Virus record (IMG/VR): IMGVR_UViG_3300032087_003871 | Location: 1-23,194 of that record | Reading direction: 5' to 3' (one strand) | Length of the DNA stretch: 23,194 nucleotides | From: a virus | Shown here: piece after piece, positions 1,157 through 14,387 of the stretch | Numbering within the stretch: position 1 is the stretch's first letter | How the letters are laid out: each line of letters begins with the position of its first letter | Translations under genes and position numbers: made by a program | The notes under the pieces: generated by a model | What the model saw: the letters and a program-made list of their open reading frames with translations, nothing else | Told to the model about the DNA's origin: nothing | The model's database searches: none

Positions 1157-1347
1157 AACTAATCCTTGCTGCATTCATTCTTTCTAGCTGCGCATCTTAC
1201 GAGTTTCCCAGGGACGATGAAGGTAAGATAGACGAAGAGGCTCTGAAAAGAGAGGTAGACATAGAACTATCAGAAAAGGTTCGAATAGATACTGAAAACG
1301 GTGAGATACTCTTTGAGTGCCAAGTGTATAAATGGTGGTGTGTATAA
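1153..1347 (+). CDS. Small lipoprotein (lipobox LSSC), possible spanin-type protein
   Basis: 64 residues. The N-terminus MKLILAAFILSSCAS is a short hydrophobic signal ending in a lipobox with Cys13, so the mature protein should be lipidated and membrane-anchored. The mature part is charged (DDEGKIDEEALKREVDIELSEKV) and ends FECQVYKWWCV with two further Cys. Small phage lipoproteins are often outer-membrane spanins in Gram-negative hosts. This one lacks the proline-rich body of typical Rz1, so that role is only a possibility. Start codon overlaps the previous stop (ATGA). Confidence 0.65.
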   Translation: MKLILAAFILSSCASYEFPRDDEGKIDEEALKREVDIELSEKVRIDTENGEILFECQVYKWWCV

Positions 1348-1649
1348 TGGCGGTAAGAAAAAGAAAAGTTGTTAGACGTAAAAAAAGCACTAGAAGAAAG
1401 GCTAAACCTTTGTCTCCAACTGTTCGTAAAACATTGGCAGCAAAGGCCAGACGTAGCGGCTATTCAGTTGGAACACTAACAAAAGTTTACAGGCGTGGAC
1501 AAGGTGCGTTTCTATCAAGCGGTAGTCGCCCAGGAGTAAGCATGTCTGCTTGGGCTCACGCAAGAGTAAACTCTTTTATTCGCGGTAGCCGTAAGCATGA
1601 TACTGATCTAAGGAGAAAACGTGCCAAGAAGAAGAGTACCAAAAGATAG
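1347..1649 (+). CDS. Highly basic protein of marine-phage type
   Basis: 100 residues. Start chosen at 1347, where TAATG couples it to the previous stop; five more residues upstream are possible. The first ~35 residues are almost all Lys/Arg (AVRKRKVVRRKKSTRRKAK). The C-terminal half has the motif FLSSGSRPGVSMSAWAHARVNSFI, a pattern I recall from marine-phage proteins of unknown function, followed by another basic tail. Strong positive charge suggests nucleic-acid binding, perhaps DNA condensation or a virion-internal role, but this is inference. It is the first of three consecutive basic proteins. Confidence 0.7.
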   Translation: MAVRKRKVVRRKKSTRRKAKPLSPTVRKTLAAKARRSGYSVGTLTKVYRRGQGAFLSSGSRPGVSMSAWAHARVNSFIRGSRKHDTDLRRKRAKKKSTKR

Positions 1650-1845
1650 ACGCAGCAAACTACCAAAGAAATACTTATCAGGAACTTCGGGTAGTAGACG
1701 TAAAAGATTGGCGGCAGTTCTAAAGAGAATTAGTCGCTTATACAAATCGGGCAAAAAAGTGCCCAAGTCTCTGTTAGCAGAGCGTAGGAGATTGGGCAGT
1801 GGCAAGAAAAAGAAAAGTCGCAAGAAAAAAGCATCCCGCTCTTAA
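1621..1845 (+). CDS. Highly basic protein, second of three
   Basis: 74 residues with a GTG start at 1621, preceded by TAAGGAG. Overlaps the previous gene by 29 bases in another frame. Roughly every second or third residue is Lys or Arg (MPRRRVPKDRRSKLPKKYL, then SGSRRKRLAAVLKRISRLYK), ending in GKKKKSRKKKASRS. The central part looks like an amphipathic basic helix. No enzyme motif. Likely binds DNA or RNA non-specifically; similar short proteins occur in marine phages, but I know no assigned function. Confidence 0.65.
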   Translation: MPRRRVPKDRRSKLPKKYLSGTSGSRRKRLAAVLKRISRLYKSGKKVPKSLLAERRRLGSGKKKKSRKKKASRS

Positions 1846-2104
1846 AAGGGCAGGTGTCTCTAGGTTTAATAAACCGAAAAGAACCCCTAACCACCCAAAA
1901 AAGTCGCATGTAGTTGTGGCTAAAGTGGGAAGTAAGGTTAAGACTATTCGTTTTGGTCAGCAGGGTGTAAAAGGCAGTCCAAAGCGTAAAGGGGAGAGCA
2001 AAGCAGCAGCTGCTCGTAGACGCTCTTTCAAAGCAAGACACGCAAGGAATATTGCAAAGGGTAAGCTTAGTGCTGCTTACTGGGCGAATAAGGTAAAATG
2101 GTAA
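1799..2104 (+). CDS. Highly basic protein with conserved GVSRFNKPKRTP / FKARH core, third of three
   Basis: 101 residues, GTG start at 1799 with AGGAG ten bases before it, overlapping the preceding gene by 47 bases. After a basic N-terminus it carries GVSRFNKPKRTPNHPKKSH, VVVAKVGSKVKTIRFGQQG and a C-terminal RRRSFKARHARNIAKGK with AAYWANKVKW. I recognise this as a conserved phage/marine-virus family of unknown function. It is much better conserved-looking than its two neighbours. The basic surface plus a compact beta-like middle suggests a structural nucleic-acid-binding protein. Stop overlaps the next start as TAATG. Confidence 0.75.
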   Translation: MARKRKVARKKHPALKRAGVSRFNKPKRTPNHPKKSHVVVAKVGSKVKTIRFGQQGVKGSPKRKGESKAAAARRRSFKARHARNIAKGKLSAAYWANKVKW

Positions 2105-6273: not shown

Positions 6274-7120
6274 AAAATTGGTGGGAGCAAGTATTCTTCT
6301 TGTTTCTACTGCTGCAACGGCAGAAGAGATCGAAGTGCAGTGGGTAAACCCCACACAAAGTGTAGACAATAGTCCAGTAAGCACACTTTCCGCTTTTACA
6401 CTCTACAAACAAGTAAATGGAACGTTTGAACTCGTAGAAACGGTTCCATATGTTAGTGCACCCCTTACGAGTGCGCTTTTTAATCTTGACTGTGGAGATT
6501 ATGTACTTGCGGGAACTGTGACTGACGCTGAAGGCGATGAATCGGGATTTAGTAATACTGTTACTAGACAGATTGCTTGTCCTCCTCCGCCAGACTCTAT
6601 TCCTCGTCCTCCGATTCTTTTATCGGGAGACAATACGGGTCTGCTCTTTTTCTCTCCAACTACAGTATTCAATGGAAATATTGCAGAAATTCAACTGTAT
6701 GATGGTGCATTGTTCGCTGTTCCGAGTGGTCGTTTTGTAGTTGAATTTACTACAGATGTGATTGGTGGAACGATGTTTTCAAGAGATGAGGGCGGCACTG
6801 CTGAGAGTGGGCACCTAACAATGTCTATAAATGGCCAGGGTCAGGTGAATGTGCGTCATCAAAGTCTTACTGAGTCTCGTGTTATAGCGGGAGGAACTGT
6901 GCTGATTGGACAACCTCATACAGCTGAGTATATCTTTGGACCCACTGGAGCAACTCTGTTGCTTGATGGAATCATAGTGGCTCAGGATAACACTTGGACT
7001 CTCGGAATAGATGGAAACTCTCTTCCGTTTGCCATAGGTGCTTCCCAGGCATCTGTTGCAAATAACACTGACTACAGAAATCCGTTCGATGGGGAACTTA
7101 CGGTAAAATTTTATGAATAG
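6260..7120 (+). CDS. Secreted protein: Fn3-like module plus LamG/concanavalin-like domain
   Basis: 286 residues from the ATG at 6260, chosen because AAGGAG is well placed and the product then starts directly with a signal peptide (MELAKKLVGASILLVSTAATA). Residues ~23-105 resemble the Fn3-like module of the gene at 4529 (VQWVNPTQSVDNSPVSTL, YVLAGTVTDAEGDESGFSNT). After a Pro-rich linker, residues ~140-286 look like a LamG/concanavalin A-like jelly roll (FVVEFTTDVIGGTMFSRDE, LLLDGIIVAQDNTW, PFDGELTVKFYE). Such domains bind glycans. Export out of the cytoplasm by the infected cell is implied; the purpose is unknown (surface modification, superinfection exclusion or virion decoration are options). 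Confidence 0.7.
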   Translation: MELAKKLVGASILLVSTAATAEEIEVQWVNPTQSVDNSPVSTLSAFTLYKQVNGTFELVETVPYVSAPLTSALFNLDCGDYVLAGTVTDAEGDESGFSNTVTRQIACPPPPDSIPRPPILLSGDNTGLLFFSPTTVFNGNIAEIQLYDGALFAVPSGRFVVEFTTDVIGGTMFSRDEGGTAESGHLTMSINGQGQVNVRHQSLTESRVIAGGTVLIGQPHTAEYIFGPTGATLLLDGIIVAQDNTWTLGIDGNSLPFAIGASQASVANNTDYRNPFDGELTVKFYE

Positions 7121-7805
7121 AAGAAATTATGTAAAAGCAGCTATAGCTTTTTGGAAGCTTCTCCGTAACAATGAAGATACTTCTCAAGTTTTTACTTTTA
7201 TAACTGCACTTACTCTAGAATCTGATTATGATGAATGTACAAAGGAGTTTATTAAAACAGATTTTGGCAGGCAAATAATTTACAACAACTTAAACGTTTT
7301 GGATAGGGTTGCAGATGTTGAGTATTTGAAAACTTTGCCTAAAAATAGTCTTGGAAATAAATACCTTGAATTTTGTGGTGACTCAATAACCACGAATAAC
7401 TTGAAAAAGGTAAGTATTGAAGCAAGCCCAAAAGGCATGAGCAACTGGCCAAGAGAAAGGATAAAACTTGCTATCCAGAGAGTTATTACTCATGATTTTG
7501 TTCATGTTCTTTTAGAGACAGGCACTAATCCTATTGGGGAGGCTTGTACCCTTGCATTCAATGAAGCACAGATAAAACAAAGATACAACGCCTCTTTAAT
7601 ACTTTCCTTCTTTATAGCTCTTAGCGCCATTGGAAAGTTGGGATTAAAAGTATTTCCTATGTGGTGGGAGGCTTACCAAAACGGTAAAAAATGTAAATGG
7701 CTCTGCGCTCAAGACCTTTATCCTTTGTTAGCTTTAGATATAGAGGAGGCTAGAAAAGAGCTAGGGGTTATAATGCTAAAAAGATATGAGGCTGTCTATG
7801 GATGA
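7113..7805 (+). CDS. Coq4-like protein (ubiquinone biosynthesis)
   Basis: 230 residues. HDFVH at 127-131 followed by exactly 11 residues and Glu143 reproduces the HDxxH(x)11E metal-binding signature of the Coq4 family. The flanking pattern also fits: LPKNSLGNKYLEF at ~75-87 and GEACTLAFNEAQ after the motif. Coq4 is needed for coenzyme Q synthesis, where it is linked to removal of the C1 carboxyl group and to organising the Coq complex. In a phage this would be an auxiliary metabolic gene that may support respiration during infection. Starts inside the end of the secreted-protein gene (8-base overlap) and shares its promoter. Function is inferred from motif, not tested. Confidence 0.8.
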   Translation: MNRRNYVKAAIAFWKLLRNNEDTSQVFTFITALTLESDYDECTKEFIKTDFGRQIIYNNLNVLDRVADVEYLKTLPKNSLGNKYLEFCGDSITTNNLKKVSIEASPKGMSNWPRERIKLAIQRVITHDFVHVLLETGTNPIGEACTLAFNEAQIKQRYNASLILSFFIALSAIGKLGLKVFPMWWEAYQNGKKCKWLCAQDLYPLLALDIEEARKELGVIMLKRYEAVYG

Positions 7806-8011: not shown

Positions 8012-9670
8012 ATGAAAGATTCTCAACCAATTAAAATACTCCGTTTAGGAGCACTACAATCTGGAAAAACTAGCGGGGCTGTGAAAGAGAGTTTCGAAGA
8101 AAGCCAGAAAAATAAAAATCTTATTAATATTTTTATAGCACATAAGACAAATGTGAATAAAGACAATCAAGAATTACATATTGATAAAATCTATAAAAAA
8201 ATAAACTTACTTAAAACAGCTAATTATGTAGCTACCTTCACCGCCCATGTAGAACAGAACTTAGACATGTTCTCCAATGGATACCCAATATGTATATCCT
8301 GTTTGGATCATTATAATCAGCTAGAAGCAGTTCTAACTTTGTGTGCTTTGAAATCGAAGTATGTTTTTGATATTTATATTGATGAATCAGATTCTATGGC
8401 TTTGGGTCATGATCGAAAAAAATCCGATGCAAGAAAAGATAATATAGTAGATTCTTTGATAAGGCAGTCTAGTGTTAGAAGGTTTATCTGCTTGACAGCT
8501 ACTCCTTTTACGGAAATTGCATCAAATTTAGACTGGGATGAGATTGAAAATGTAAAGCCTGGACCTTCATATAAAGCGCTACAAGATTGTAAATTAGAAA
8601 GTATTACTGAATCCGCAATGAAAGAGTTTAATAGAGCGGTAATACCGTTTTCTATAGAAGAAATTATTAAAGAAGAAGCAGCTCTTTCTAATACAGTTAC
8701 TCTTATTTCTACTAAAAAAGGTAATCAGCTTCACTATGGGCAGGCAGAGGCTATATCAAAACTATTGGATGAAAATTGTTTAGTTGCTGTATTAAACTCA
8801 AGTGTTCGTCAAAAATACTTTGTTAAAGGAAAAACAAAATACATTCCCACTAAAAGAAATGGTGAAGGGCAGCTAGAAGAGCTGTTTGAAGTTGCAAAAG
8901 ACTATGATAAGCTTTTTATTATTGGATATGATATGTTAAGTAGAAGTGTAACATTCAAAAAAGGTAAGTTTCAAGAAATTTCTGGTCTACTATTTTCCTC
9001 TTCAGAAGACACTACTTTGGCTTTTATGCTTCAAAGACTCGGAAGACTTTGTGGCTATCAAGATAAGGCCGGAACAATTTTTACAGATAAAGAAATGCAA
9101 ATAGCATCCGGCATGGTCCAATATCCTGAAATGTTAGATATAGCTACCAAATATAAAAAGCATGATGAAAGGACGAAAGTGTTGGTTCAGAAATTCAAAC
9201 AATTTTTTCCCAATGTGTTTGGATCAAAAAATAACGGTATAAAAAGAAAATCTTCTAGTAGGACTCCTTCGTTAAAAGGTAGAACCGAAAGTGAGGCCGA
9301 AAAAATGGAATTTCATATACTTAGTACTCTGAAAAAAATAACTTCAAACGATATACCAGAAGAAGTGCTAAATCAATTAGAAAACGAAGAAAAAGCAGTT
9401 AAGGGCAGTCCTTTATATAATTATATTTTGAAGCAAAATCCACTCTCAAATCGAGTATTAAACGCCTCCCAGGGAAAGGATGATATGGCTCTACCCAATT
9501 CAAACATAGAGGATAATTATCGTGATACTTTATATATGTATGACGGCAATGTACTAAAAATTGTTGTGCAGCCTCATCAGAATATCCGTCCTGATGTGAA
9601 TTTTGCAGTACATAATATTCTTACTGAAAAAGTAGATTGCTACAGCCCTATGGGCAAGCTAAGAATTTGA
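8012..9670 (+). CDS. SF2 helicase/ATPase with Z1-like C-terminal motor half
   Basis: 552 residues, preceded by AAAGGAGG and in its own transcription unit. Motifs in order: Walker A GALQSGKT (13-20), DESD Walker B (124-127), TATPF motif III (162-166), a FIIGYDMLSRSVTF segment (~302-315) and QRLGRLCG motif VI (341-348). The latter two resemble the Z1 domain found in some defence-associated and DNA-processing proteins. There is no recognisable nuclease; the C-terminal ~150 residues are Lys-rich and unassigned. It probably hydrolyses ATP to remodel DNA or RNA. Base composition is much more AT-rich than its neighbours, and the gene is flanked by duplicated intergenic modules, so recent acquisition is likely. 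It could be a replication/recombination helicase or an anti-/superinfection-defence factor. Confidence 0.75.
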   Translation: MKDSQPIKILRLGALQSGKTSGAVKESFEESQKNKNLINIFIAHKTNVNKDNQELHIDKIYKKINLLKTANYVATFTAHVEQNLDMFSNGYPICISCLDHYNQLEAVLTLCALKSKYVFDIYIDESDSMALGHDRKKSDARKDNIVDSLIRQSSVRRFICLTATPFTEIASNLDWDEIENVKPGPSYKALQDCKLESITESAMKEFNRAVIPFSIEEIIKEEAALSNTVTLISTKKGNQLHYGQAEAISKLLDENCLVAVLNSSVRQKYFVKGKTKYIPTKRNGEGQLEELFEVAKDYDKLFIIGYDMLSRSVTFKKGKFQEISGLLFSSSEDTTLAFMLQRLGRLCGYQDKAGTIFTDKEMQIASGMVQYPEMLDIATKYKKHDERTKVLVQKFKQFFPNVFGSKNNGIKRKSSSRTPSLKGRTESEAEKMEFHILSTLKKITSNDIPEEVLNQLENEEKAVKGSPLYNYILKQNPLSNRVLNASQGKDDMALPNSNIEDNYRDTLYMYDGNVLKIVVQPHQNIRPDVNFAVHNILTEKVDCYSPMGKLRI

Positions 9671-9685
9671 TAAAATTATTAGGTG

Positions 9686-9721
9686 TAAAAAATTTTTCAA
9701 ACTACAGAGGGGCTTTTTAGC
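9686..9721 (+). repeat. Degenerate copy of the intergenic terminator module
   Basis: 9686-9713 is identical over 28 bp to 12085-12112. The following GGGGCTTTTTAGC matches the terminator at 7882. The second hairpin arm is broken (GCACTCC instead of GCCCC) and no T-run follows, so termination here is probably weak and some transcription may continue into the next gene. Confidence 0.8.
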
Positions 9722-9742: not shown

Positions 9743-9771
9743 TTGACATTTTTAGGCAAATGCCCTATAAT
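9743..9771 (+). promoter_or_regulatory. Sigma70-type promoter of the Ala-rich array operon
   Basis: TTGACA 9743-9748, 17-base spacer, TATAAT 9766-9771. The upstream AAAAAATAATTC and downstream ATTTTT match promoters at 2355 and 21002. Drives 9798-12076. Confidence 0.9.
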
Positions 9772-9797
9772 ATACACAAATCAAAGGAGAAACAATT

Positions 9798-10238
9798 ATG
9801 TGGGAAAAATACATCGAAACCCTTCCTCAACTAAAAGCTGGAGCGCACGAACAAGGAGCCGGTAGTCTCTGTGCTATGGAGATGGTTGCTTTTATGGAGC
9901 GACTGCCTCACAGCGATACTCCAGAGTGCACTTGTCCGGTTTTGGCAAGCTATGTTCGCACTCTGAACGATAACATGACTGATGAGGCTCGTCAGAAGCT
10001 TTTGCCGGTTCTTCCAATGTTAGTCGGAACTGTGAATGATGACCTGGTTTTGGCTCGTGCTGAGTTTTTTGCTCAGGCTGCAAAGGAGCGTTTCGTGCCG
10101 ATGGTGGGTCGACCTTCTGACGAAGTGTGGGACGAGGCTGTTACTGTGCTTGTGGAGGCGATTGAGTTGGACGCGGAACGCGTCGTGGCCCAGTGGCAGG
10201 CGTCTACAGCAGAACAACTGATTAGAGAGTTTTCGTAA
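9798..10238 (+). CDS. Conserved CAME/PHSD/CTCP/LND-domain protein heading the Ala-rich array
   Basis: 146 residues, AAGGAG eight bases before the ATG. Residues ~15-80 carry AGAHEQGAGSLCAMEMVAF, then PHSDTPECTCPVLASYVRTL and LNDNMTDEARQKLLP, with conserved-looking Cys25, Met27-Glu28, His38-Ser39-Asp40, Cys44, Cys46 and Leu-Asn-Asp at 56-58. I recall bacterial and phage proteins with this same block followed, in the same polypeptide, by Ala/Trp/Arg-rich repeats, sometimes labelled putative immunity proteins. Here the repeat part is split off into ten separate ORFs. The Cys/His/Asp pattern could bind metal. Function unknown. Stop overlaps the first array ORF as TAATG. Confidence 0.75.
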   Translation: MWEKYIETLPQLKAGAHEQGAGSLCAMEMVAFMERLPHSDTPECTCPVLASYVRTLNDNMTDEARQKLLPVLPMLVGTVNDDLVLARAEFFAQAAKERFVPMVGRPSDEVWDEAVTVLVEAIELDAERVVAQWQASTAEQLIREFS

Positions 10239-10411
10239 TGACTAAGGCTGCTGCTTGGGCTGCTTGGGCTGCTGCTAGGAATGCTGCTTGGTATGCTGCT
10301 AGGGATGCTGCTAGGGATGCTGCTTGGTCTGCTAAGTATGCTGCTAAGGCTGCTGCTTATGCTGCTAAGGCTGCTGCTAAGGCTGCTGCTGAGGAGTTGA
10401 ATAATGTTTGA
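10238..10411 (+). CDS. Ala-rich array ORF 1
   Basis: 57 residues. TAATG couples it to the leader gene. Begins MTKAAAWAAWAAARNAAW; the variable residues between Ala pairs are mainly Trp, Tyr, Lys, Arg and Asp, so it is net basic. It ends with the family tail EELNNV. Likely a single long helix. It is the only unit that lacks the MFD start because it follows the conserved-domain gene. No signal peptide. Confidence 0.75.
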   Translation: MTKAAAWAAWAAARNAAWYAARDAARDAAWSAKYAAKAAAYAAKAAAKAAAEELNNV

Positions 10412-10616
10412 TGAGGCTGCTTGGGCTGCTTGGGCTGCTGAGGCTGCTGAGTGTGCTGCTGAGTGTGCTGCTGAGGCTGCTGATGATGCTGCTGCTTGGG
10501 CTGATGAGTGGGCTGCTTGGGCTGATGAGTGGGCTGCTTGGGCTGATGAGTATGCTGCTTGGGCTGATGAGTATGCTGCTTGGTGGGCTGCTTCTAAGGA
10601 GTTGAAAAATGTTTGA
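10404..10616 (+). CDS. Ala-rich array ORF 2 (acidic, W-A-D-E heptads)
   Basis: 70 residues. Unlike ORF 1 it is strongly acidic and contains four regular seven-residue repeats AAWADEW or AAWADEY (~33-60). That spacing could make a coiled or stacked helix. Starts MFDEAAWAAW and ends KELKNV. Trp and Tyr are unusually dense. The opposite charge to ORFs 1 and 3 suggests that array members could pair. Confidence 0.75.
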   Translation: MFDEAAWAAWAAEAAECAAECAAEAADDAAAWADEWAAWADEWAAWADEYAAWADEYAAWWAASKELKNV

Positions 10617-10764
10617 TGCTAGGGATGCTTCTGCTAAGGCTGCTGCTAGGTCTGCTACTTGGGCTGCTATGTATGCTATGTATCCTGCTAAGGCTGCTAA
10701 GGCTGCTGCTGCTAATGCTGCTGAGGCTGCTGCTTGGTCTGCTAAGGCGTTGAATAATGTTTGA
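10609..10764 (+). CDS. Ala-rich array ORF 3
   Basis: 51 residues, MFDARDASAKAAARSATWAA then a short MYAMYPAK break with the only Pro of the array. The tail is KALNNV, and the ribosome-binding site it encodes for the next unit is degraded to AAGGCG, so ORF 4 may depend more on coupling. Its KAAARSATWAA block recurs in ORF 6. Confidence 0.7.
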   Translation: MFDARDASAKAAARSATWAAMYAMYPAKAAKAAAANAAEAAAWSAKALNNV

Positions 10765-10906
10765 TGAGGCTGCTGCTCAGGCTGCTGCTCAGGCTGCTTG
10801 GGCTGCTGCTTTTGCTGCTAAGTATGCTGCTAGTGGTGCTGCTTATGCTGCTGGGTTTGCTGCTAAGGCTGCTAAGGCTGCTGCTAAGGAGTTGAATAAT
10901 GTTTGA
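10757..10906 (+). CDS. Ala-rich array ORF 4
   Basis: 49 residues, the shortest unit. Starts MFDEAAAQAAAQAAWAAAF and includes a Gly/Ser-containing middle (YAASGAAYAAGF). Few charged residues except a Lys-rich end and tail KELNNV. Some Phe and Tyr at the variable positions. Confidence 0.7.
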   Translation: MFDEAAAQAAAQAAWAAAFAAKYAASGAAYAAGFAAKAAKAAAKELNNV

Positions 10907-11051
10907 TGCTGCTAAGTGTGCTGATTGGGCTGCTGCTTGGGCTGCTAGGGCTGCTAGGGAGGCTAAGTGTGCTGATAGGGCTGCTGCTGCTAAGGCTGCT
11001 GATGCTGCTGCTTGGTCTGCTAAGGCTGCTAAGGAGTTGAATAATGTTTGA
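10899..11051 (+). CDS. Ala-rich array ORF 5 (two Cys)
   Basis: 50 residues. MFDAAKCADWAAAWAARAAR, then EAKCADRAAAA; the AKCAD motif occurs twice 16 residues apart, giving two Cys that could bond or bind metal. Net basic. Tail KELNNV encodes AAGGAG for ORF 6. Confidence 0.7.
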   Translation: MFDAAKCADWAAAWAARAAREAKCADRAAAAKAADAAAWSAKAAKELNNV

Positions 11052-11412
11052 TGAGGCTGCTGCTCAGGCTGCTGAGGCTGCTGATATGGCGGCTGATAGG
11101 GCTGCTGAGGCTGCTGCTTGGGCTGCTGCTTGGGCTGCTAGGGATGCTAGGGATGATTCTGGTAAGGCTGCTGCTAGGTCTGCTACTTGGGCTGCTGAGG
11201 CTGCTGCTAAGAAGTTGAAAGCTGCTAAGGCTGCTGCTAAGAAGTTGAAAGCTGCTAAGGCTGCTGCTAGGTCTTCTACTTGGGCTGCTATTTGGGCTGC
11301 TGAGGCTGCTGCTTGGGCTGCTAGGGATGCTTATGCTGCTGCTGTTGATGCTGCAAAGGATGCTGCTACTTGGGCTGCTAAGGCTGCTGCTGAGGAGTTG
11401 AAAAATGTTTGA
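11044..11412 (+). CDS. Ala-rich array ORF 6, longest unit, probable fusion
   Basis: 122 residues, about twice the usual size. It contains two internal KKLK sequences (56-59 and 66-69) encoded by AAGAAGTTGAAAGCT, which look like decayed junction tails in which the stop and restart were lost. The block KAAARSATWAA (41-51) and KAAARSSTWAA (72-82) repeats within it and in ORF 3. Ends EELKNV. Confidence 0.75.
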   Translation: MFDEAAAQAAEAADMAADRAAEAAAWAAAWAARDARDDSGKAAARSATWAAEAAAKKLKAAKAAAKKLKAAKAAARSSTWAAIWAAEAAAWAARDAYAAAVDAAKDAATWAAKAAAEELKNV

Positions 11413-11563
11413 TGAGGCTGCTCGGGCTGCTGAGTATGCTGCTTATGCTGCTGCTTGGGCTGCTGCTGAGGCTGCTTGGGGTGCTTCTGCTAAGGCTGCT
11501 TGGGCTGCTGATAAGGCTGCTGAGTATGCTGATAAGGCTGCTAAGGAGTTGAATAATGTTTGA
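11405..11563 (+). CDS. Ala-rich array ORF 7
   Basis: 52 residues, MFDEAARAAEYAAYAAAWAA, with WGASAKAAWAA and EYADKAA blocks shared with ORF 8, its closest relative, indicating recent tandem duplication. Tail KELNNV. Confidence 0.7.
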   Translation: MFDEAARAAEYAAYAAAWAAAEAAWGASAKAAWAADKAAEYADKAAKELNNV

Positions 11564-11717
11564 TGCTGCTGCTGCTGAGTACGCTGCTTATGCTGCTGCT
11601 TGGGCTGCTGCTGATGCTGCTTGGGGTGCTTCTGATAAGGCTGCTTGGGCTGCTAATTATGCTGATAAGGCTGCTGAGTATGCTGATAAGGCTGCTGAGG
11701 AGTTGAATAATGTTTGA
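11556..11717 (+). CDS. Ala-rich array ORF 8
   Basis: 53 residues, near-duplicate of ORF 7: WGASDKAAWAANYADKAA and EYADKAA. The two differ mainly at variable positions (AEAAW versus ADAAW). Has one TAC codon where others use TAT. Tail EELNNV. Confidence 0.7.
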   Translation: MFDAAAAEYAAYAAAWAAADAAWGASDKAAWAANYADKAAEYADKAAEELNNV

Positions 11718-11877
11718 TGCTGCTGATGAGGCTGCTGCTGCTGCTGAGTATGCTGCTCAGGCTGCTAAGTATGCTGCTAGAGGTATTGATGAGGGTGCTG
11801 ATGAGGCTGCTGAGTATGCTGCTGAGTATGCTGCTGAGCATGCTGCTTGGGCTGCTAAGGAGTTGAAAAATGAGTAA
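11710..11877 (+). CDS. Ala-rich array ORF 9
   Basis: 55 residues, acidic, MFDAADEAAAAAEYAAQ, with a non-repeat interruption ARGIDEGADEAA and then three EYAA/EHAA units. It ends KELKNE and TAA instead of NNV and TGA, changing the junction to ATGAGTAA. Confidence 0.7.
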   Translation: MFDAADEAAAAAEYAAQAAKYAARGIDEGADEAAEYAAEYAAEHAAWAAKELKNE

Positions 11878-12076
11878 TGCTGCTATTTGGGCTGCTTGGG
11901 CTGCTGAGTATGCTGCTGAGGCTGCTGATGATGATGCTGTTGCTGCTTGGGCTGCTATGTATGCTGCTTGGGCTGCTGAGTATGCTGCTGAGGATGCTGC
12001 TTGGGAGGCTGCTGAGGCTGCTGATATGGCTGCTGGGTGTGCTGCTTGGGCTGCTGAGGAGTTGAATAAAAAATAG
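11870..12076 (+). CDS. Ala-rich array ORF 10 (last unit)
   Basis: 68 residues starting MSNAAIWAAWAAEYAAEAA, acidic, with several WAAEYAAE units and one Cys. The tail has changed to EELNKK because no further unit follows. Terminator begins 31 bases after the stop. Confidence 0.75.
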   Translation: MSNAAIWAAWAAEYAAEAADDDAVAAWAAMYAAWAAEYAAEDAAWEAAEAADMAAGCAAWAAEELNKK

Positions 12077-12084
12077 AGTGGGGT

Positions 12085-12127
12085 TAAAAAATTTTTCAAA
12101 CTACAGAGGGGCGTCAGCCCCTTTTTT
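12085..12127 (+). terminator. Rho-independent terminator of the array operon (with 28-bp repeat)
   Basis: GGGGC (12108-12112), GTCA loop, GCCCC (12117-12121), then six T. Positions 12085-12112 repeat 9686-9713 exactly. Confidence 0.9.
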
Positions 12128-12158
12128 CATCCACCTACTCAAAAACAGTTCTTGACAT
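12122..12158 (+). repeat. 37-bp terminator-promoter linker, copy 2
   Basis: One mismatch against 7899-7935. Joins the array terminator to the promoter of the gene-free transcript. Confidence 0.9.
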
Positions 12159-12181
12159 CATGGTAATCGTCATGCTATAAT
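12152..12181 (+). promoter_or_regulatory. Sigma70-type promoter of the putative ncRNA
   Basis: TTGACA 12152-12157, 18-base spacer, TATAAT 12176-12181. Predicted start near 12188, directly before the hairpin ATTGCT/AGCAAT. Confidence 0.85.
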
Positions 12182-12187
12182 ATATAA

Positions 12188-12684
12188 CATTGCTACACAG
12201 CAATATGAGGCTAAATTGATTGCCCTGAAGAGGCCGAGAATATAAGTCTCTTCTGAACCATGTTGGAGTGGATGACATTAGGGAATCCACTCTCCACATA
12301 GATTTAGAATGAGCGTTCAATCTTCAAGGTCTCTTCTCACTTTACAAAGTAAAGAAGTTAACCACTTCAATTTACCCGTATTTAACCCATAAAGCCCATC
12401 CCGAAGGGATAAGCAATATGACTAAATACGTTGCCCTCAAATATAAAGCCTCATAATTTTGCTACTAAGCACCCAAAGCCACTAAAGACCCAAAAGCATC
12501 GAGCTGACACTTGCATTTATGCTAAACGTGCATATTTATTGCGATTTTGCAACTTAATCTAATGGGTTAAGAATGGCTACTAACGATGCAAGGGTGGTTA
12601 CGCCTTAGCATGGGGAGGGTTTAGACAGCGTTCCGCGCGAAGCGCGGTTGGCCCCATAAAAAAAGGGGCTTATTGCCCCTTCTT
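12188..12684 (+). ncRNA. Putative structured non-coding RNA (~490 nt)
   Basis: A consensus promoter, no convincing ORF for ~470 bases, and a terminator define this transcript. Visible stems: ATTGCT/AGCAAT at the 5' end (12189-12204); GAAGAG/CTCTTC (~12227-12253); GAGTGGAT/ATCCACTC (~12266-12292); CTTTAC/GTAAAG (~12339-12353); ATCCC/GGGAT (~12398-12410); AAGG/CCTT near 12590-12606; ATGGGG/CCCCAT (12610-12657) enclosing CCGCGC/GCGCGG. A direct repeat with CAATATGA, CTAAAT and TTGCCCT occurs at 12201 and 12414. Large phage RNAs such as GOLLD and ROOL are comparators, but I see no diagnostic match. Not a tmRNA or tRNA by eye. Non-coding status is inferred. Confidence 0.6.
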
Positions 12685-12685
12685 G
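12663..12685. terminator. Bidirectional terminator between convergent transcripts
   Basis: AAGGGGC, TTATT loop, GCCCCTT (12675-12681). On the minus strand seven T follow, on the plus strand CTTGTTTT. It ends the RNA from the left and the minus-strand genes from the right. The loop holds the stop codon of the gene at 12670. Confidence 0.85.
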
Positions 12686-12801
12686 TTTTCCAATGCTCTA
12701 GCAAGTCTTTGTAGTTTTCTTAGTTTATACTTATCCCAGTAGTAAGTTGCCAAGCTTAGCCCTATTGCCAAAACCGTTATAAAAGTCATTATTTCAAGCA
12801 T
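12670..12801 (-). CDS. 43-residue membrane protein
   Basis: Starts at 12801 (AGAGG upstream) and overlaps the end of the previous minus-strand gene by 13 bases. One membrane span (MTFITVLAIGLSLATYYW) then a basic helix (DKYKLRKLQRLARALENKK). Its stop codon sits in the terminator loop. Too short for a family assignment. Confidence 0.6.
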   Translation of the reverse strand: MLEIMTFITVLAIGLSLATYYWDKYKLRKLQRLARALENKKGQ

Positions 12802-14292: not shown

Positions 14293-14387
14293 ACGAAAAT
14301 TAGGTTATTGTGCTATACGAAAATTAGGTTATTGTGCTATACGAAAATTAGGTTATTGTGCTATACGAAAATTAGGTTATTGTGCTA
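14293..14387. repeat. Iteron-like array: four 24-bp direct repeats
   Basis: Unit ACGAAAATTAGGTTATTGTG followed by CTAT, repeated at 14293, 14317, 14341 and 14365 without spacers; the last copy lacks one base. Copies are identical. Perfect short head-to-tail repeats next to AT-rich DNA are typical of replication-initiator or repressor binding sites. Confidence 0.9.

Follow-up and report, generated by a model that had tools for sequence, protein, structure and literature searches.

Ten tandem alanine-rich cistrons in a marine-type phage as a possible split and amplified form of a phage family protein

What does a phage gain from ten short, alanine-rich open reading frames (ORFs) placed head to tail on one strand? 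The array in question occupies positions 10238–12076 (+ strand) of the IMG/VR record IMGVR_UViG_3300032087_003871, a marine-type phage whose 23,194 nucleotides constitute the window analysed here. A first-pass annotation had described ten consecutive Ala-rich ORFs of 49–122 residues and proposed them as an undescribed system; all ten are intact and of the lengths given, although the description overlooked a 146-amino acid (aa) gene immediately upstream, which opens the operon, and two apparent relic junctions inside the sixth unit. The array sits behind this gene, here called the core gene, in one transcription unit. The explanation that we favour, with roughly even confidence, is that the core protein and the ten Ala-rich helices belong to one operon that represents a split, amplified form of a phage family protein with an Ala insert.

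None of the ten ORFs contains an internal stop or frameshift, and Ala accounts for 44–53% of each. The genes of the operon are as follows:

9798..10238, + strand: core gene, 146 aa, N-domain joined directly to C-domain (phrog_3416 match, relatives, C-domain test and AlphaFold2 model)
10238..10411, + strand: Ala-rich cistron 1, 57 aa, net charge +4; start overlaps the core stop as TAATG
10404..10616, + strand: Ala-rich cistron 2, 70 aa, net charge -15; WADE(W/Y)AA heptads
10609..10764, + strand: Ala-rich cistron 3, 51 aa, net charge +3
10757..10906, + strand: Ala-rich cistron 4, 49 aa, net charge +1
10899..11051, + strand: Ala-rich cistron 5, 50 aa, net charge +2
11044..11412, + strand: Ala-rich cistron 6, 122 aa, net charge +2; two apparent relic junctions AAGAAGTTGAAA at 11209–11220 and 11239–11250
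11405..11563, + strand: Ala-rich cistron 7, 52 aa, net charge -3; recent duplicate of unit 8
11556..11717, + strand: Ala-rich cistron 8, 53 aa, net charge -6; ∼97% DNA identity to unit 7 outside gaps
11710..11877, + strand: Ala-rich cistron 9, 55 aa, net charge -9
11870..12076, + strand: Ala-rich cistron 10, 68 aa, net charge -11; start overlap ATGAGTAA

Successive units overlap by 8 bases at nine of nine junctions. Eight of these overlaps read ATGTTTGA and the ninth reads ATGAGTAA, so that the ‘identical 8-base overlaps’ of the first-pass annotation agree in length but not in sequence. A GGAG lies 7 bases 5′ of the ATG at each junction (GGCG instead at junction 3), and this Shine-Dalgarno (SD) sequence is encoded by the fixed tail of the preceding unit, (K/E)EL(N/K)N. 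The array thus combines the short start/stop overlap and SD by which translationally coupled cistrons are recognised, and the ten short products would be made by coupled translation. An 8-base overlap is not unusual by itself, because prokaryotic overlaps are enriched in three classes, the -8 nt start/stop spacing (NTGNNTGA) among them (PMC12548453); coupled gene pairs of this class share the start/stop geometry and the SD inside the upstream frame. The unusual part is that nine such overlaps follow one another between paralogues, and their agreement is explained by the origin of the units through duplication. The charges claimed earlier for units 2, 9 and 10 (acidic) and for units 1 and 5 (basic) are borne out, and unit 8 is acidic too. 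Unit 6, which also contains a 30-base repeat, looks like fused units, because it has within it two apparent relics of lost junctions, which retain neither GGAG nor ATG. The relics suggest that units can pass between a fused and a separate state.

To what family does the first gene of the operon belong? The core protein matches phrog_3416 (E 4e-5; E 7.2e-7 in a further family search) and has all of the family residues G15, C25, D40, P42, C44, N57-D58, and R65. Conserved residues of its N-domain are H17, C25, E28, H38, D40, C44, and C46; in the family alignment C25 and C44 are invariant and H17, H38, and C46 are common. These conserved Cys and His residues suggest a metal site. A single-protein search with the core gave no relatives, and an alignment was needed; profile searches then returned relatives at 11 and 20 viral loci (overlapping sets) and at 21 genomic loci, and tblastn with the core listed proteins in 18 mycobacteriophage records and one gut phage contig. 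Relatives outside phages come from alphaproteobacterial and planctomycetal metagenome-assembled genomes and include a Methylobacterium plasmid protein. The window core falls in no Pfam or NCBIfam family, the relatives tested fall in no Pfam family, and the neighbour genes of chromosomal and plasmid relatives gave no hint of function. Similarly, the core, units 2 and 6, and two relatives had no match at E up to 1 among the PADLOC anti-phage defence profiles. Judged by sequence, the core is a member of an undescribed phage and bacterial protein family spread over several phyla. The core gene was not found in the near phages G005–G007, whose records are fragments, and megablast of the window against phages gave no match.

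The position of the Ala tract in these relatives links the core to the array. Most viral relatives carry an in-frame Ala tract, and in many phage relatives the N-domain, a tract of variable length and the C-domain occupy one ORF of 183–327 aa. The mycobacteriophage proteins Rockne gp55 and Constella gp109, hypothetical members of phrog_3416, have a homologous core-type N-domain with the G-x-H...C...P-x-C pattern (E 4e-5), followed by an Ala-rich tract that, like the array, is rich in Trp, Ser, Arg, Lys, and Glu; unlike the array, this tract is in the same ORF with a period near 4 (12-base repeat), there is a C-terminal part of their own, and separate cistrons are lacking. The alphaproteobacterial-type phage proteins L010, L011, L013, L015, and L017 share an N-domain ∼40% identical to the core and a homologous C-domain, but are single ORFs of 226–327 aa with a tract of ∼55–156 aa between the two domains. 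The tract is not obligatory in the family, because most planctomycetal relatives and the protein L264 have the N-domain without it, as does the Methylobacterium plasmid protein.

The window core likewise has no in-frame Ala tract: it ends at 10238, and the Ala-rich sequence is in ten other ORFs. Its last 48 residues score 13.3 bits against a profile of the post-tract domain of relatives, a score reached by one of 3000 shuffles of the window core itself; for each of two close relatives, L008 and L009, none of 3000 own shuffles scores as high as the relative does. Since these residues resemble the C-domain of relatives, we read the window core as an N-domain joined straight to a C-domain. L008 (IMG/VR 3300032087_004482) and L009 (IMG/VR 3300007234_000257) resemble the window in having a core without insert (70–72% identical; 71% in L008) with Ala-rich, GCT-encoded cistrons directly downstream. 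L008 also shares the 8-base overlap, at the start of its second Ala-rich cistron. They differ in that the core is joined by ATGA and that L008 has two coupled Ala-rich cistrons before continuing into other genes, while the L009 contig ends within the first. In L008 (1110–1824), the same junction cassette, GAGAAAGATGATGAGTGA, again with an 8-base overlap, reappears before ordinary genes 3′ of the Ala-rich cistrons. In IMG/VR, the exact junction pattern had no match, the generic pattern GCTGCTNNG occurred at at least 119 loci with no chain of Ala-rich cistrons among the matches listed, and the 14 loci returned by the unit tail motif were all unrelated; with the patterns used, the window, L008, and L009 are the only split cases. 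The same array, which the first-pass annotation had proposed to seek in related phages, has a two-cistron counterpart in L008, and the ten-unit form was found in the window only.

Do the products look like helices, or like the translation of a simple repeat? The non-Ala residues recur with a period of 3.56–3.79 residues in every unit. Summed power at 100 degrees is 2.00, whereas no residue shuffle out of 500 exceeds 0.67, and none of 2000 block shuffles (Ala-plus-X blocks within units, block lengths kept) reaches the observed value; taken unit by unit the effect of block shuffling is modest, with 15 to 252 of 1000 shuffles as high. A DNA repeat would give a period of 3.0 (9-base) or 4.0 (12-base), and the tracts of L017 (exactly 3.0) and Constella (4.0) have these periods, as in simple repeats. 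The period in the array is helical, not 3.0, and stronger than in either kind of shuffle, so that selection seems to have acted on the products as helices with an Ala face; they show the alpha-helical periodicity with one Ala face that defines Ala-core coiled coils. Glu, Trp, Lys, and Tyr are common among the non-Ala residues, whereas Pro (one), Gly (eight), Val (ten, mostly in the fixed tail), and Thr (five), all a single base away from GCT, are rare. Searches of Pfam and PHROGs with the Ala-rich units gave only COQ9 (E 0.078) in one case and low-complexity matches (best E 0.023) in the other.

The codons of the array raise the question of whether protein, DNA, or neither has been selected. 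GCT encodes 300 of the Ala residues, as against two GCG, one GCA, and no GCC. Dominance of a single Ala codon would be expected if the array were a by-product of repeat expansion, a GCT-based minisatellite that expands and contracts through slippage and recombination and whose short ORFs are tolerated and functionless. The tracts of several relatives also keep to one third-position choice, each its own, units 7 and 8 arose by recent duplication, unit 6 has its internal repeat, and many contigs of relatives break in the tract. We nevertheless regard this origin as doubtful, if a real contender: the period is helical, SD, ATG and overlap are kept at nine junctions with no broken unit, Pro, Gly, and Val are rare, and no 9-base unit predominates. 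The same synonymous uniformity could instead mark a function of the nucleic acid, a G/T-rich, polar and weakly structured strand serving as a recombination, packaging or mRNA-stability element. Third positions in the array are 70% T and 28% G, a GC skew of +0.3 and an AT skew of about -0.3 occur in this region only, and in every unit the mRNA folds less than its synonymous recodings do (z +0.7 to +5.2). Of the codon differences in pooled unit pairs, 702 are nonsynonymous and 17 synonymous, a rough count from gapped pairwise alignment of repeats, and the first Ala-rich cistrons of L008 and L009 differ at four of 20 codons, all nonsynonymously, and show no change at 13.2 synonymous sites (P 0.016, given a synonymous rate of 0.271 in the core). 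However, the tracts of relatives have quite different third-position composition and the protein shows helical periodicity, which together make a nucleic-acid function very unlikely. Near-constant synonymous sites may stem from a recent expansion or from selection on codons or for an open mRNA; in any case, residues that change while synonymous sites stay near-constant form an unusual evolutionary pattern.

Two further alternatives keep a protein product and change its identity. Leu-rich ORFs are open in nine units, and the decoded product might be a Leu-rich peptide begun at the second ATG of ATGTTTGATG (TGATG), or a fusion made by a +1 shift at GTT TGA as in RF2, a shift which, read from the sequence, enters the frame of the next unit. 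Periodicity cannot choose between frames, because the Leu frame would inherit the same period; our choice of the Ala frame is based on SD spacing, unit 1, and in-frame relatives. The SD lies 7 bases from the Ala-frame ATG and 14 from the Leu-frame ATG, unit 1 lacks a Leu-frame ORF of 40 aa, and relatives keep the Ala frame fused to the core. Moreover, openness of the Leu frame is largely a consequence of GCT codons, and there is no GTT-TGA site at the ninth junction, which reads GAG TAA, so we consider decoding of another frame highly improbable. A structural role in the virion or in a fibre-like element, with many short Ala-core coiled coils polymerising rather than partnering the core, is also unlikely, though less so. 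Their composition and heptads are those of Ala-rich coiled coils, but a core gene opens the operon, the locus lies in an accessory stretch away from terminase and portal, and the tract-bearing protein of relatives has no match to virion families.

Several observations weigh against reading the operon as a split and amplified family protein. The split state is seen in three records, and the only two close relatives found, L008 and L009, are both partial contigs. The three C-domain tests were made on homologous, non-independent sequences and gave modest scores (10.9–13.3 bits). The ten-unit array lies in a repetitive region of one assembled metagenomic contig (23194 bases), and several related loci and contigs end inside their own Ala tract; because repeats assemble badly and related contigs stop in the tract, the count of ten could be wrong. 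The AlphaFold2 models are confident for the N-domain only. In that of the core (32 sequences), block-mean predicted local distance difference test (pLDDT) scores are 72–94 to residue 100 and the C-terminus is helical but uncertain; a monomer model of a fused relative places helices in the tract at low confidence. Scores in the C-terminal part and in the Ala tract mostly fall below 70. The core model had no match in the PDB at E 0.001, its VIA matches are weak (Z 2.2–4.4) and cover low-confidence C-terminal helices only, and its best BFVD matches (E 0.01–0.07) are uncharacterised phage proteins.

How, then, might a split and amplified family protein work? The Ala tract, an insert in most phage relatives, would here have become separate, tandemly duplicated cistrons. 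For each product a single alpha-helix is predicted, with Ala on one face and Trp, Tyr, Glu, Asp, Lys, and Arg on another. Through their Ala faces the helices may pack against one another and against the C-terminal, helical part of the core, and so build in trans a bundle that would form in cis in relatives, and the varied outer faces (Trp, Tyr, and charges) could provide a diversified target-binding surface. Two parallels exist for such an assembly. Coupled gene pairs are reported often to encode heteromeric subunits (PMC10666635). Honeybee silk contains Ala-rich heteromeric coiled coils (PMC12284834); this silk heterotetramer and the Alacoil idea share with the array an Ala face, heptads, and several differently charged chains, a resemblance in working only, without demonstrated homology, since length, organism, and context differ. 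A role in infection as an accessory host-interaction factor is suggested by the accessory stretch in which the operon lies. The earlier proposal of an undescribed system thus survives in part. Separate single-helix cistrons of differing charge in a coupled layout are unique in the searches made, but the array is not an isolated system: the Ala insert is known inside a phage family protein, a two-cistron form exists in L008, and the -8 overlap is a known class (PMC12548453). The array is real and rare, and it is probably a new architecture rather than a demonstrated new system.

What surrounds the operon? Its signals and flanking repeats are:

9686..9713, + strand: 28-base direct repeat, copy 1, exact
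9743..9771, + strand: sigma-70 promoter TTGACA-17-TATAAT, 12/12 matches
9783..9789, + strand: ribosome-binding site of the core gene, AAAGGAG, read from sequence
12085..12112, + strand: 28-base direct repeat, copy 2, exact
12107..12128, + strand: terminator-like hairpin AGGGGC-GTCA-GCCCCT and T run, read from sequence; the terminator scan lists the stem on the - strand only

Even when up to 3 mismatches are allowed, the window holds just two copies of the 25-base core of the flanking repeat. Perfect sigma-70 promoters (TTGACA-N17/18-TATAAT) occur nine times in the window, as against 0.02 expected by chance, and six of the nine are preceded by TTC. TTGACA-17-TATAAT is the ordinary promoter type of this phage; since the nine are spread over the whole window, the operon promoter was dropped as a sign of a moron. 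The accessory stretch, which lies away from terminase and portal, contains small genes along with a Coq4-like and a helicase-like gene. The former (7113–7805, +) encodes a phage-borne homologue of Coq4, a ubiquinone biosynthesis protein (Pfam PF05019, E 5.7e-12, 45.8 bits against a cut-off of 22.9). The latter (8012–9670, +) encodes a 552-aa protein with the helicase-like motifs LGALQSGKT, DESD, TATPF, and QRLGRLCGY and had no notable match in Pfam, NCBIfam, or PADLOC. Downstream of the array, 12152–12690 (+) contains a perfect sigma-70 promoter (12152–12181), ∼490 bases without a long ORF, and a terminator-like hairpin (12663–12681). This segment folds at -158.5 kcal/mol, compared with -120.2 for shuffles (z -6.1), and had no convincing family match in Rfam; it is a candidate structured noncoding RNA, although some other window segments likewise had z < -3 in a rough scan. 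Part of its promoter region matches related contigs just downstream of terminase genes. Elsewhere, four perfect 24-base tandem repeats (ACGAAAATTAGGTTATTGTGCTAT) at 14293–14387, in a stretch without clear genes, are possible iterons or regulatory sites, and 1332–2104 (+) holds three successive short Lys/Arg-rich ORFs, the third with homologues in 42 loci of related phages.

It is tempting to speculate, though we put it forward only tentatively, that in this phage an intramolecular helical insert has become an expandable set of separately translated, charge-diversified helices that co-assemble with the core, the binding surface then evolving as mini-cistrons are gained, lost, and fused. If true, a low-complexity insert and a polycistronic array of single helices would be two forms of one thing, in a clear natural case that shows both states, fused and separate, next to each other (unit 6). 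The operon would also offer a first way into a protein family that is widespread but unnamed in phages and in bacteria of several phyla.

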